Below, piece by piece: positions 38,645 through 55,974 of a stretch of DNA of 64,000 nucleotides (position 1 is the first letter of the stretch; every line of letters starts with the position of its first letter). Both the position numbers and the translations under genes were made by a program. The DNA is from Petrotoga mobilis SJ95. GTDB taxonomy: Bacteria; Thermotogota; Thermotogae; Petrotogales; Petrotogaceae. Under the pieces are notes generated by a model. The model searched no databases, was not told the origin of the DNA, and was given only the letters and a program-made list of their open reading frames with translations. The stretch is from assembly GCF_000018605.1 (NCBI RefSeq), contig NC_010003.1, positions 844,501 through 908,500 on the forward strand, written 5' to 3'.

Positions 38645-40648
38645 TTATATCTTAAAACTTTCAACCAATCCTTTTAACTCTGTGGCTAATTCACTCAACT
38701 CTTTCGCTTCTTCGTTTATTCCTGCAGCTTGGTTTACTTGTTCGTCTATTACACTTCTTGATCTTTCTAGTTGTTCACTTATTTCTGTTACCGCTTTCGC
38801 TACCCTGTCCATCGCTGTGCTCATTTCTTGCGCACTTGCACTTTGTTCCTCTGCACTTGCCGTCATGTTTTCTATCCCTTGGTCCATCCTTTCTATCCTT
38901 TCTTTTATCCGGTTGAAACTTTTCTGTACATTCTCCATCTTTTCGTTTATTTCTCCTATCGTTCCTACTACCTTGTTCGTCGATTCGTTTACTTTGTTCG
39001 TTCCTTGCGTTATGTTGGTTAGTATTTCTGATATTTCATCCGTTGCATTCCTTGATTCTTCGGCTAACTTCCTTATCTCATCCGCTACAACTGCAAATCC
39101 TCTTCCCGCTTCCCCTGCCCTTGCTGCTTCTATCGCTGCGTTCAGTGCCAAAAGGTTCGTTTGTTCCGTTATCGAGTTTATCGTTTCTACTATACTTTGT
39201 ACGTTCTTGGCATTGTTTGCGAGTGTTTCTACTTCTTTTTGACTTTCTTTTGTCCTTTCTACCGCTTCTTTCACAGCTTGACTTATACTTTCTATCGTTT
39301 TGCTTCCTTCTTCTGCAGCTTTACTTGTTTCATCTGCTTCTTCACTTAGCCTTTGTGCGTCTTGGGATACTCCTTGTGCCGCCCTTGCTACTTCGTCTAC
39401 CCCTGAGGTTACTTCTTCTACGTTTCCTGCTGTTTCTTCTGCATTTGTTTGTATCTTGTCCATTTGGTTTTTGAGTTCTTCTGAGCTCTTTCTACTTTCT
39501 TGTGATGATTGCGTTAGACTTTCTGATGCATTTTCTACTTTGTTTGATGCTTGCATTATTGAGCCCATAGATCTTCTTAGTTCTTTACTCATTTCTGATA
39601 GAGCGTTTGCCATCTGCCCTATCTCGTCTTTACTTTTACTTTCAAAGTTTACCGTTAGGTCTCCTTCTTTGAATTGGTTTATCTTGTTTTTGAACTCTAA
39701 CAGTGGTTTTGTTATACTTCTTATTAGATAGATAACCATTATTATCGATACTACAAAGGCGACTACAGTTAAGATGGCTGTCAACATTATTGCCCTGTTG
39801 TTTTCTTCTATGAGAGATGGACCTAATGTGTCTTGTTGAACCTTTAATTCATTTCTTTGTTCATCTAATAGATTCAATATCTCTACCCTTGCTAGTTCCA
39901 TCTGCCCAATTATGGGCTCTTGGGATTCTATAGCTGCGACTATTTGATTGAAGGAGTTTCTGAACTGTTCAGCCATATCTTTCATCTCGTTGAACATTTC
40001 AGTTAATTCATCTGAGGTTAGACCATATTGCATAATCAAAAGTTGAGAATCCAATTCATTAAAAGCGTTTAAAACATTGTTTTTATCACCAAGAGATTTG
40101 GATGAAAAATACATGGAAGATAAATGATCTATATTATCCAATATATTAAGTGAACTATCAGCATAAAAGACAAGGGTTGAAACGTTATTTTCTTGGGCTA
40201 AGGTTTTAAAATCGGTAATACTTTGACGTAATTCATTGGATATATCTTTAAAATCCTGCCTTACGAGTCTATTTTTTTCTTCGTTCAATTGAACAATTTG
40301 ATTAAAGTTGTTTTCATATTCCTCTATCATTACGAGTACATTTTGTAGATGTGTATCGATGATTTCACCTGTAAAGAAACTTTGAACTTTGTTAATATTC
40401 TGAGTAATAATTTCTTTTGTTTGTTCATCATAACTAATCACATAGTCTTTGAAGGCTAAAACAGCTCCAAAAAAGTTATTTTCCATTTCAGAGATATGAT
40501 TCGTTTCCTCAGATAGCTCCCTATAACTATTCAAACCATTGTTGGAACTTACCAAAGAATAAATATTGAAAAATATCGCTGCCCCAAATAAAACAAAAAT
40601 TACAACTATAATTACAATTATCCTTCCTCTTATGCTTTTGAACGACAT
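38645..40648 (-). CDS. Methyl-accepting chemotaxis protein
   Basis: 667-residue transmembrane chemoreceptor. TM1 (~8-30), a periplasmic helical-bundle sensor domain (~31-290), TM2 ([23 protein letters not shown], ~288-310), HAMP (to ~365) and a long signalling coiled coil whose hairpin tip is [36 protein letters not shown]. Glutamine/glutamate pairs near [17 protein letters not shown] mark methylation sites for CheR. No C-terminal NWETF-like tether. Ligand unknown. SD AAAGGGGG precedes the ATG. Transcribed alone. Confidence 0.96.
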
Positions 40649-40838
40649 AGAAATTTCCCCCTTTATTTTTAATTATCTTGAGAATAATTATAATACAAAA
40701 CAGTAAACAAAAGCAACTAAAAAGTTGCTAGAAATATTTATTTTTTTTTAATATGTTCGAATGTGAAAACGAAAAATTAAAGATAATATATGGTATAATG
40801 GTATATAGTATAATTAAAGAAGAAGAAGGGGGCAGATT

Positions 40839-41807
40839 ATGCAATATAACAATCTTGGTAAGGCAGGTATAAAAGTAAGTGAAATTTCATTCGGATCTTG
40901 GCTAACTTTTGGAAACCAACTAGATACAGAAGGAGTTAAATCATGTTTGCGTACCGCTTATGAAAACGGCGTTAACTTTTTTGACAACGCAGAAGCCTAC
41001 GCTAACGGGCTTTCTGAATCTCTAATGGGAATGGCGCTAAAAGAGTATAGAAGAGAAGACCTTGTAATTTCTACAAAAATATTTTGGGGTGGAAAAGGCC
41101 CAAATGATAGAGGGGTATCAAGGAAGCATCTTTTAGAAGGAACTTGGAACTCTCTAAAAAGGTTACAAGTTGATTATGTTGACCTTATATTTTGCCATAG
41201 ACCAGATCCTACAACCCCCATTGAAGAAACGGTATTCGCAATGGATTATATAATAAGAAACGGTTTAGCTCTTTATTGGGGAACTTCTGAATGGAGTGCG
41301 GAGCAATTGGAAGAAGCTTATCTAGTAGCTGATAAAAGAAATCTTATTCCGCCCACAATGGAACAACCTCAATACAACATGTTAGTTAGAACCAAAGTTG
41401 AAAAAGAATTTAAACCTCTTTATGAAAAATATGGATTAGGGTTAACCACATGGAGTCCGTTGGCCAGTGGGGTATTAACCGGAAAATACAACGATGGAAT
41501 CCCCCAAGACAGCAGACTTGCAAAATTTAAAAACTTACGAGAAGAGTTTGAAAAAGGTGGAGTTTTGTCGCAAGAAAATATTGAAAAGGTCAGAAAATTA
41601 ACAAAAATAGCTAACGATTTAGGCGCAACAATGGCTCAACTTGCTCTTGCCTGGATATTGAAAAACCCTAACGTTAGTACCGTAATAACAGGTGCAAGTA
41701 GGCCAGAGCAGGTAAAAGAAAATGTAAAAGCTTCCCAGATAAAAGAAAAACTTACAGACAGTGTAATGGAAGAAATCGAAAAAATTCTAAACAACAAGCC
41801 CCAATAA
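40839..41807 (+). CDS. Aldo/keto reductase (Kvβ/YghZ-type)
   Basis: NADPH-dependent aldehyde/ketone reductase of 322 residues. The catalytic tetrad is visible: Asp in [11 protein letters not shown], Tyr in the same loop, Lys in [11 protein letters not shown] and His in [10 protein letters not shown]. The C-terminal cofactor site [20 protein letters not shown] is typical. The [19 protein letters not shown] segment groups it with the potassium-channel β-subunit/YghZ branch that detoxifies methylglyoxal-like aldehydes. SD AAGGGGG. TATAAT-like boxes occur twice upstream (40794 and 40809), without clear -35 partners. Confidence 0.95.
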
Positions 41808-52540: not shown

Positions 52541-52565
52541 AAGGGCCTTTTGGCCCTTATTTTTC
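52541..52565. terminator. Bidirectional terminator between the pspC-like gene and histidine kinase
   Basis: AAGGGCC - TTTT - GGCCCTT followed by ATTTTTC on the plus strand; the A-run before it gives T's on the other strand. Confidence 0.85.
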
Positions 52566-53897
52566 AATTGGCAAAAATAAAGAAAACACTGTTCCTTTTC
52601 CAACTTCGCTCTCCACTTCTATTCTTCCATCATGCGCATTAACGATCTCTTTGACAATTGCCAGCCCTAAGCCAGTACTTTTTTCACTGCTTGTCCTTGC
52701 TTTATCTCCCCTGTAGAAACGATCGAATATTCTATGTAAATCTTCTTTAGGAATACCTCTACCCGTGTCTTCTATCGATATTTTAGCAAAATTACCAATT
52801 TTAACAGAAGAAATAGTAACTTTACCTTCATCCGTATACTTTAAAGAATTATCTAAAATGTTTATAAGAGCTTCTTTTAATTTATCTTTGTCTGCCCTGA
52901 TATTTAACTCTTCCAATTTTTCAACTTGTAAGGTTAAACTCTTGTTATGGTATAAAGGACTAACTTTTTTTATTACTTCCTCCAACAAAGATTTCAAATT
53001 AGTTTTCGTGAAATTGTAAAATTGAGTTTTGTTATCACTCCTGGCTAAAAAAAGTAATTTATCGATAATTTCTGACATATAAGAAGTTTCTTCTAAGATC
53101 AACTCTAATGATTTTTTATACTCGTCTATCGACCTGTCTTTTTTTAAAGTCAAACTACTTTCAGCTTGTATTATGGAAAGTGGGGTTCTTAAATCGTGAG
53201 AAACATCTGCGGTGAATTGCTTTTGTTGTTCAAAGGCTTTTTCAAGTCTCGAAATCATTTGATTCAACGTGGAAGCTAACCTTCCTAACTCATCTTGGGA
53301 GTTTACTTTTATCCTTTCAGTTAAATTATTTTCTTCGATATTCTTTGCAGTATTTATAATTTTTTCAACAGGTTTAAGAGAACTATCGGCGTAAAAAAAT
53401 CCCCCTATCCCCGCAAGGATCATTACCAAAACACCAGTGGATATCAAAATCATTTTCAAACGAGCCAAAACATTCTCTATCTCATTGGTAAATCTTCCGA
53501 TGATTATGACAACATTCGAATTTTCTTTCAGTTTTGCGTTTGAAACATAAAATCTAGTGTTCCAATTGAAGTCTGTTGTTAAATTGAAAAAAAATGATTC
53601 ACCGGAGTTGGCTTTTTGGATTTTCCCCTGAATATCGGGTATTTTGACAAGATAGCCATAAAATCTTAATAAACTAGCATCATCACTATAAATGTAAATC
53701 ATTTCGTTTGGTAACGCTTTTATATTTTCGATATCTTCAACACTTTCTGCTTGTTCTAATGCTCCTTTAAAATCATCCATCCTTGCCAACAAAAAATTAT
53801 CAATATTATCGTATAGGCTATAGCTTAAAGCATAATAAGAACTTAGACCAAATATTAAAAGCAAAATGGCCATTATTAGTAAGTACCAAACGGTCAA
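52557..53897 (-). CDS. Sensor histidine kinase
   Basis: Membrane-bound two-component kinase, ~446 residues: TM1 (~4-24), periplasmic sensor (~25-148), TM2 (~149-170), HAMP, HisKA with phospho-acceptor His234 in DVSHDLRTPLS, and HATPase with NILDNSLKYT, DTGRGIP and GLGLAIVK. Start unclear: TTG 53897 has no good SD, and the frame is open upstream through SFFKSIKFKL to near the stop of the response regulator. It follows its regulator by 26 nt; signal unknown. Confidence 0.95.
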   Translation of the reverse strand: MTVWYLLIMAILLLIFGLSSYYALSYSLYDNIDNFLLARMDDFKGALEQAESVEDIENIKALPNEMIYIYSDDASLLRFYGYLVKIPDIQGKIQKANSGESFFFNLTTDFNWNTRFYVSNAKLKENSNVVIIIGRFTNEIENVLARLKMILISTGVLVMILAGIGGFFYADSSLKPVEKIINTAKNIEENNLTERIKVNSQDELGRLASTLNQMISRLEKAFEQQKQFTADVSHDLRTPLSIIQAESSLTLKKDRSIDEYKKSLELILEETSYMSEIIDKLLFLARSDNKTQFYNFTKTNLKSLLEEVIKKVSPLYHNKSLTLQVEKLEELNIRADKDKLKEALINILDNSLKYTDEGKVTISSVKIGNFAKISIEDTGRGIPKEDLHRIFDRFYRGDKARTSSEKSTGLGLAIVKEIVNAHDGRIEVESEVGKGTVFSLFLPIEK

Positions 53898-53923: not shown

Positions 53924-54592
53924 TTAAGATACCGTTAACCTATAACCAGCTCCTCTAACAGTCTCTAGAATTTTACCTTCTTTATCTCCAATTTTCTTTC
54001 TCAACCTTCTTATATACACGTCTATAACGTTTGAGTTACCTTCAAAATCGATATCCCACATTTTCTCCTCAAGAATAGTTCTGGTAACTACTATTTTTGG
54101 GTTTCTCATAAAATACTCCAAGATATTGTATTCCTTCGGGGTTAATTTCAATTTTTTCTCCCCCATCCAAACCTCTCTTGTTAAGGTGTTTAAGGTTAAA
54201 TCTCCCACTTTAAGAACTGGGTTACGAGTGAAACTTTCTCTTCTTAATAAAGATCTAACCCTTGCAAATAATTCATCGAAATCAAAAGGTTTTACCAAAT
54301 AATCATCCGCTCCGGAATCCAAACCCTTAACTCTGTCCCCCACACTATCCTTTGCAGTTAACATCAATATTGGAGTATTGATGTTTTCTTTTCTTATATT
54401 TTGACAAACGGTTATCCCATCTTTTTTTGGTAGCATTATATCTAAAATTATCAAATCGTATGAAGAATATTTTGCATAGTTTTCCGCTTCTTCTCCGTCG
54501 TAAACAACATCGATACAGTATCCTTCTTCCGTAAGTCCCCTTTTTATTATATAAGCAAGTTTTTCTTCATCCTCAACAACAAGGATTTTCAT
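53924..54592 (-). CDS. OmpR/PhoB-family response regulator
   Basis: 222 residues: receiver domain with acidic pocket EDE (7-9), phospho-acceptor Asp51 in LIILDIMLP and Lys in LTAKDS, then a winged-helix DNA-binding domain (LTPKEYNILEYFMRNP... VIDVYIRRLRKKIG). Cognate to the kinase that follows. ATG 54592 is the only fitting start (GGTGG upstream). Confidence 0.96.
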   Translation of the reverse strand: MKILVVEDEEKLAYIIKRGLTEEGYCIDVVYDGEEAENYAKYSSYDLIILDIMLPKKDGITVCQNIRKENINTPILMLTAKDSVGDRVKGLDSGADDYLVKPFDFDELFARVRSLLRRESFTRNPVLKVGDLTLNTLTREVWMGEKKLKLTPKEYNILEYFMRNPKIVVTRTILEEKMWDIDFEGNSNVIDVYIRRLRKKIGDKEGKILETVRGAGYRLTVS

Positions 54593-54674: not shown

Positions 54675-55838
54675 TTAAATGTTGACGACCCACATGAAAA
54701 AGGCAGCCATTGGAGCCATCGTCAAATTATCGTTTAACCAATTACCAAACCCCTCCACAACAGTTGCCGAAAGAGCACCCACAATCAAGGCCATATAACT
54801 AATCGGTAAACCAATCAAATTCATGTAAACAGCTCCCGATGCAAAAGAAATGAAAAAACACGCTAAACTCCCCTCCACCGACTTCCCTTTCAACCATTGA
54901 TGTTTACCCCACTTTTTTCCAACCAATACAGCCCAAGAATCTCCCAGTGCTAACATCACAATAGAGATCAAAGAATATGGAACAGGGAACAATCCTGCAA
55001 TAGCTGAACCCATAAGAAAATAACTTGTTCCTGAAATCTTATAAGCCTCTTCGCTTTTTCCAACGGGTTTAAAAATTTTCTTCAACAACTCATTTATACT
55101 TTTTGAGTATTTTCTTATTAATTCAAGAGAAAGAGCTATTAAACCAGCAATTACAACAATATATCTAAAAACTACAGGACCCCAAAGTGGGTAAGCAAGC
55201 GCAGGGAACAAAAGACCCATATAACGCCAGGTCTTTCTTCTAACAAAATTATCTTTTAAAGGCTCTTTTACCTCTTGGAAAGCTCTTTTCAAATTCTCCC
55301 AACCTTTAATAAAAAGCCAAGCCACCAAAATAATAGTCAAAACAGTGCCCAATAAATCCATAGTACCTCTCAGATATCCTATCAAAATAACAAAAGGCCA
55401 CAAAAATGACAAAACGAACATTATTCCTTTACCAAAAGTAAGCCATAACGTTCCAGCTAATATACCAAAAGCCGCAGATTCTAACGGAAACAAAACAACA
55501 AAAGATCCCACAGCAGCTGCTACCCCAACACCACCTTTACCCTTCAACCAAATAGACCAAGAATGACCTATTATTGCTACTAAAGCAAGTAATGGCCACC
55601 AATTCTTACCTATACCAAGCAAAAAACCGATTAAAATAGCCAAAACCCCTTTGGTTGAATCTCCTGTAAAAGATAATACACCTGCTACAGGTCCCGCTAT
55701 TTTCCAAGCGTTAGTTGTGCCGACATTTTTAGTTCCTTCTTTTCTAATATCTTTTCTAGAAAAAATTTTTGCAAAAATAAAACTCCATGGTATCGAACCG
55801 ATAAGATAACTCGCAACCAACGAGATTAAAAAGTCCAC
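54675..55838 (-). CDS. Fusion: PlsY glycerol-3-phosphate acyltransferase + Dgk1/Sec59-like lipid kinase domain
   Basis: 387 residues, about twice the PlsY length. Residues ~1-200 carry PlsY motifs: GSIPWSFIFAK, GTKNVGTTNAWK and GHSWSIWLKGKGGVGVA, which bind acyl-phosphate and glycerol-3-phosphate to make lysophosphatidate. Residues ~205-387 are a separate multi-spanning domain with LGDSWAVLVGKKWG (~297-311) and KGKSVEGSLACF (~317-328), the DSxAxxxG and KSxEGS signature of CTP-dependent dolichol/phytol/diacylglycerol kinases and CDP-DAG-synthase-like proteins. GTG 55838 lies 6 nt after AGAGGTG; GTG 55847 overlaps the SD. Monocistronic; divergent from the glucuronate operon. Confidence 0.87.
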   Translation of the reverse strand: MDFLISLVASYLIGSIPWSFIFAKIFSRKDIRKEGTKNVGTTNAWKIAGPVAGVLSFTGDSTKGVLAILIGFLLGIGKNWWPLLALVAIIGHSWSIWLKGKGGVGVAAAVGSFVVLFPLESAAFGILAGTLWLTFGKGIMFVLSFLWPFVILIGYLRGTMDLLGTVLTIILVAWLFIKGWENLKRAFQEVKEPLKDNFVRRKTWRYMGLLFPALAYPLWGPVVFRYIVVIAGLIALSLELIRKYSKSINELLKKIFKPVGKSEEAYKISGTSYFLMGSAIAGLFPVPYSLISIVMLALGDSWAVLVGKKWGKHQWLKGKSVEGSLACFFISFASGAVYMNLIGLPISYMALIVGALSATVVEGFGNWLNDNLTMAPMAAFFMWVVNI

Positions 55839-55974
55839 ATCGATCACCTCTTATTTTTTATTATACTCTTATACTCTACTTTTCAAATCTTTAGAAAAAG
55901 TGAGAAAAATCAACCTAATCAAAAATATTTGCATTTAATTGGATTACATTGACTATAATCAGGTAAAATCAAGG

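Follow-up and report, generated by a model that had tools for sequence, protein, structure and literature searches.

The fusion gene and its surroundings

The window (the whole stretch of 64,000 nucleotides of DNA from the heat-loving bacterium Petrotoga mobilis SJ95 that was analysed) contains on its minus strand, at positions 54675..55838, a gene of 387 codons plus stop, which starts with a GTG at 55838, ends with the stop codon at 54675-54677 and encodes a product of 387 aa. A ribosome-binding-like GAGGTGA (55844..55850, minus strand) can be seen 5 nt upstream of the GTG; a promoter scan scored no better than shuffles. The plus strand of the interval has many stops. The reading frame is unbroken in 25 genomes and no usable internal start was seen in the sequence at the junction between the PlsY-like and the kinase-like parts, thus the halves are neither separate genes nor joined by an assembly slip, and they constitute one real fused protein. 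Together with a PF02660 match and kinase profile matches (see below), this agrees with the initial annotation, which had placed a PlsY acyltransferase and a lipid kinase in one polypeptide. An AlphaFold2 model of the fusion, calculated from two alignment rows, was unusable (pLDDT 39).

Downstream of the fusion gene lie an OmpR-type response regulator gene (53924..54592, minus strand) and a sensor histidine kinase gene (52557..53897, minus strand), both recognized with Pfam; neither is claimed as part of the mechanism discussed below. The same two neighbours adjoin the fusion in Petrotogaceae-type genomes (family f1, so classed from its gene content), but elsewhere the neighbours differ, and the context therefore names no substrate. 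In Petrotogaceae-type relatives a PepSY-domain gene on the opposite strand often separates the fusion from the two-component system (L098:6392-7084; also L099, L119 and L126); it is missing from the window. Besides the fusion the window genome encodes separate PlsX, PlsY, PlsC, CdsA and DgkA proteins, which makes the fusion accessory.

The PlsY-like half and its G3P pocket

In the synthesis of bacterial phospholipids PlsY is considered a committed enzyme that uses G3P and is strictly conserved; it is also a drug target. The PlsY-like acyltransferase domain of the fusion comprises residues 10-185 (55284..55811, minus strand). It matched PF02660 with an E value of 2.1e-31 and a score well above the gathering cut-off (109.7 against 24.1 bits), and matched aaPlsY in the PDB (5xj5) with E 2.1e-9. 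With PlsY it has in common the fold family, the entire acyl-phosphate site and N180 (PlsY-type positions are numbered as in aaPlsY). Unlike PlsY, it has S35, R45, K104, S142 and H177 changed and carries the kinase-like C-terminal domain, and it falls under the curated threshold of the PlsY equivalog model TIGR00023 (101.9 bits, cut-off 137.2), while the housekeeping PlsY of the same genome reaches 173.4 bits.

The alignment revealed the acyl-phosphate signature (T41, H92, GG.GVA) in the window protein. Motif 1 (residues 30-46, DIRKEGTKNVGTTNAWK; 55701..55751, minus strand), as judged from the alignment and the published structure (PMC5700162), keeps the T41 equivalent and has S35 replaced by T and R45 by K. 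In the acyl-phosphate hole (residues 92-107, H..GGVGVA; 55518..55565, minus strand) H92, G102, G103, G105, V106 and A107 are kept and K104 is replaced by V, whereas motif 3 (residues 179-182, GWEN; 55293..55304, minus strand) keeps the N180 equivalent and has G for H177. The acyl-phosphate contacts T41, H92, G102, G103, G105 and A107 of the ACYLTRANSFERASE half were invariant in 25/25 fusions. All three PlsY motifs had been reported in the initial annotation; this holds for their outline and for the acyl-phosphate loop, but the residues that hold G3P in PlsY are substituted.

In the structure of aaPlsY, S35, R45, K104, S142 and H177 are among the contacts of the phosphate clamp and of the 2-OH of G3P (PMC5700162). 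In the window protein these positions read S35T, R45K, K104V, S142I and H177G, and N180 is the sole contact retained. The phosphate clamp S35/R45/K104/N180 is thus T/K/V/N and does not conform to that of PlsY, and the 2-OH contacts S142/H177 are I/G, the call at S142 being less certain because this alignment column is gapped in group A, one of the two sequence groups of fusions (see below). The ten group A proteins have T (9) or S (1) at S35, K (8), N (1) or Y (1) at R45, V (9) or I (1) at K104, I (8) or L (2) at S142, and G in all ten at H177. In group B (n = 15) R45 is kept, K104 is K or R, S142 is D or N, and H177 is N, S or G. In the 45 housekeeping PlsYs examined, all five positions carry the canonical residue throughout; H177, present in 45/45 of these, is absent from 25/25 fusions. 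Replacements in aaPlsY left 17% (S35T), 6% (R45K), 7% (K104A) and 6.5% (H177A) of the activity, and S142A lost ~70% (PMC5700162), V104, I142 and G177 of the window protein being other substitutions than those published.

Taking into account that the acyl-donor site is kept and the part gripping the partner is rebuilt, the fusion probably makes a lipid other than the usual product of PlsY, although the lost clamp could also mean lost catalysis. The earlier idea coupled G3P acylation to a lipid kinase within one chain; of this the fusion and the two families stand, whereas G3P acylation itself is weakened by the five changed contacts and by the separate canonical PlsY. Channelling or recycling between the fused halves is possible.

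Genomes of the same family contain more PlsY paralogues (L013, L014, L017, L026, L027), in which R45 is replaced by Y or F, and K104 and H177 stay.

The kinase-like half and its relatives

The CTP-type lipid kinase-like domain (Sec59/Dgk1/CdsA superfamily) was assigned to residues 200-387 (54678..55241, minus strand) by HMM search and hhalign. Pfam and NCBIfam searches with the C-terminal half alone gave no match. When a family profile of this half (A2) was used in an HMM search, it found proteins that stand alone, 226-234 aa in length (best E 6.6e-8), as well as a protein in which a COG0170-like part is fused to DUF92 (3.1e-7); CdsA proteins matched with E values of about 1e-4 to 1e-5. With hhalign, comparison to Sec59/Dgk1-like (COG0170-like) proteins of Thermotogota, which had been assigned by operon and DUF92 architecture (PMC5898192) and not by a COG model, yielded 97.6% and E 2.8e-12, and comparison to CdsA 95% and E 3.6e-8. 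Similarity to kinases is thus detectable by profile search, as the assignment of this half to the Sec59/Dgk1 kinase family in the initial annotation had implied. Of the two domain models relevant to that annotation PF02660 matched (see above), but CTP_transf_1 (PF01148) did not match the fusion; it also missed the stand-alone protein L056, as well as that half of L057 which is COG0170-like, indicating that the model is insensitive here. A weak PF01148 match elsewhere in the window (~40548-40976) spans other genes and is due to chance, and so is the sole PDB profile match of the kinase half, Folliculin (E 0.8). A PDB profile search with the stand-alone relative L056 found nothing.

The core motifs are intact. 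R201-K202 (55233..55238, minus strand) corresponds in the alignment to RK..H.G of the stand-alone kinases, a pair retained in group A. GDSWAVLVG (residues 299-307; 54918..54944, minus strand) contains the first invariant aspartate, D300, which is found in both groups, and aligned with GDGFAAIIG and with CdsA; residues 300-311 of the fusion are DSWAVLVGKKWG. KSVEGS, already pointed out in the initial annotation, is located at residues 319-324 (54867..54884, minus strand), its K, E and G being invariant in the fusion alignment (A7), and is found in the CdsA and Sec59-like rows as well. NDNL (residues 369-372; 54723..54734, minus strand) carries the second invariant aspartate of the alignment, D370; archaeal COG0170 (Sec59-like)-DUF92 proteins have the two conserved aspartates of the superfamily (PMC5898192). 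Over both fusion groups G299-D300, A303, G307, K319, E322-G323 and D370-N371 were invariant. From these comparisons we conclude that the C-terminal half is predicted to have the fold of a CTP-type lipid kinase; the nucleotide and the substrate can be suggested from knowledge of the family.

The fusion has RK..[HR].G, GD..A...G, K..EGS, DNL and the two conserved aspartates in common with Sec59/Dgk1/VTE5-type kinases (COG0170), but unlike in these its kinase half sits behind a PlsY-like domain. That a COG0170 kinase can be joined to another lipid-handling domain has a precedent in the COG0170-DUF92 double-domain proteins (Mbar_A3310, L057), in which the partner is DUF92 (VTE6-like) and not PlsY. 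CdsA (CTP:phosphatidate cytidylyltransferase, PF01148) is of the same superfamily and its D and K..EG motifs align; its C-terminal signature region (H-G-G...D-R type), present in L061-L063, is absent in the fusion, and the window genome has its own CdsA.

The stand-alone kinase of L056 is flanked by phytoene/squalene synthase and DUF92 genes: in L056:657-2999 and in L059, the gene of a squalene/phytoene synthase stands in a row with those of a COG0170-like kinase and of DUF92, as a VTE5/VTE6-like set for prenol phosphorylation. In L057:703-2145 the COG0170-like kinase is fused to DUF92 in a protein of 481 aa, as in archaeal Mbar_A3310. These arrangements match the archaeal COG0170 (Sec59-like)-DUF92 architecture (PMC5898192).

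Distribution and proposed function

When profile A2 and PF02660 were each run over 103 genomes of Thermotogota, at least 25 were found to carry the fusion, with a length of about 390-420 aa. The fusions form two sequence groups over seven families, group A with ten members (from f1 and f9), and group B with 15 (from f2, f7, f8, f10 and f11); the groups are about 26% identical to each other. In the window's own family the complete fusion occurs in 8/21 genomes with 76-100% identity, among them 5/6 genomes of the genus. Comparison of group A members showed that the two halves are both under purifying selection, with dN/dS of about 0.05-0.25 and for the most part 0.05-0.2; neither of them is decaying. 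The fusion is an old accessory gene. In the PlsY tree groups A and B were each one clade (100/100), and a single clade for all fusion PlsY halves was not rejected (AU p 0.48); in the kinase tree group B was closer to stand-alone kinases (97/94), but the branches were long. The fusion may have arisen once or twice. A contig scan of the genomes with a kinase profile built solely from group A peptides found one relative. No fusion was found in the plasmids searched, no complementary pattern was seen with DgkA (present in 98/103 genomes), and a literature search returned no paper on a PlsY-kinase fusion.

Judged from these sequence comparisons, there is about an even chance that the fusion is a bifunctional accessory enzyme, which would combine acyl-phosphate-dependent acyl transfer to an acceptor other than G3P with a CTP-type lipid kinase in cis. 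In this accessory integral-membrane lipid enzyme, acyl-phosphate made by PlsX would be bound in the conserved phosphate hole of the N-terminal PlsY-fold domain and the acyl chain would be passed to a hydroxyl acceptor, which in the window protein's group is probably uncharged where G3P has its phosphate. The Sec59/Dgk1-type domain would phosphorylate a lipid hydroxyl at the cytoplasmic face using CTP (or another NTP), its target being either the product of the PlsY domain (acylation first, phosphorylation second) or diacylglycerol or polyprenol of the same membrane. We infer both activities, their order, the nucleotide and the substrates.

Four other explanations were considered. The G3P pocket is dismantled in group A and the kinase motifs are invariant, as expected if the kinase alone worked and the PlsY half were a non-catalytic module binding lipid or acyl-phosphate that positions or regulates the kinase, e.g. 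as a sensor of acyl-phosphate supply. We consider this unlikely, as no residue of the acyl-phosphate site, T41 and H92 included, varies among the 25 fusions and the N-terminal half is under strong purifying selection, although a sensor would fit these observations too. Quite improbable is the model of the initial annotation, a working G3P acyltransferase in one chain with a kinase for diacylglycerol or polyprenol, making lysophosphatidate and phosphatidate (or prenyl phosphate) side by side: PF02660 matches well, acyl-phosphate site, N180 and kinase motifs are all retained, and S35T aaPlsY is still 17% active (PMC5700162), but five G3P contacts are altered together where the single changes tested leave aaPlsY with at most about 32% of its activity, TIGR00023 is missed by the fusion and not by the PlsY of the genome, and that dedicated PlsY is already there.

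Phosphorylation by the kinase half of a fatty acid or other lipid, so that the PlsY half receives acyl-phosphate or a different activated donor, would account both for the fusion and for the kept acyl-phosphate site as a one-protein fatty-acid salvage; this is very improbable, since the characterised members of the kinase superfamily use hydroxyls (dolichol, phytol, diacylglycerol) and not carboxylates, and PlsX in the genome makes acyl-phosphate. Two separate proteins, or an assembly or frameshift artefact, can practically be dismissed in view of the unbroken frames and the missing internal start, nothing having been found in favour.

If the proposal of a bifunctional enzyme with a new acceptor is true, a conserved clade with a rebuilt G3P half and a lipid kinase uses acyl-phosphate for something else, and the fusion directly becomes a candidate where steps leading to the unusual Thermotogota lipids are unassigned. 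That the PlsY-fold enzyme and the kinase in cis together constitute an acylate-then-phosphorylate route to lipid phosphates in this phylum is a doubtful extension of the proposal. Group B retains R45, K or R at 104, and N180, that is, most of the phosphate clamp, and has the 2-OH contacts changed, so that a phosphorylated acceptor stays possible and a different one, e.g. DHAP or another C3 phosphate, may serve. Thermotogota contain ether lipids, and such an acceptor could link group B to these.

Another PlsY paralogue (DGNPGSSN/STN, GGKAVA/IA) was seen adjoining a family 2 glycosyltransferase gene in L114:6777-7550, L115:7173-7820, L116:6992-7627 and L117:6926-7564, in L115 also with genes of FAD-dependent desaturase-like, Rieske-like and SDR-like type close by; it may acylate a glycosylated lipid of the carotenoid type.
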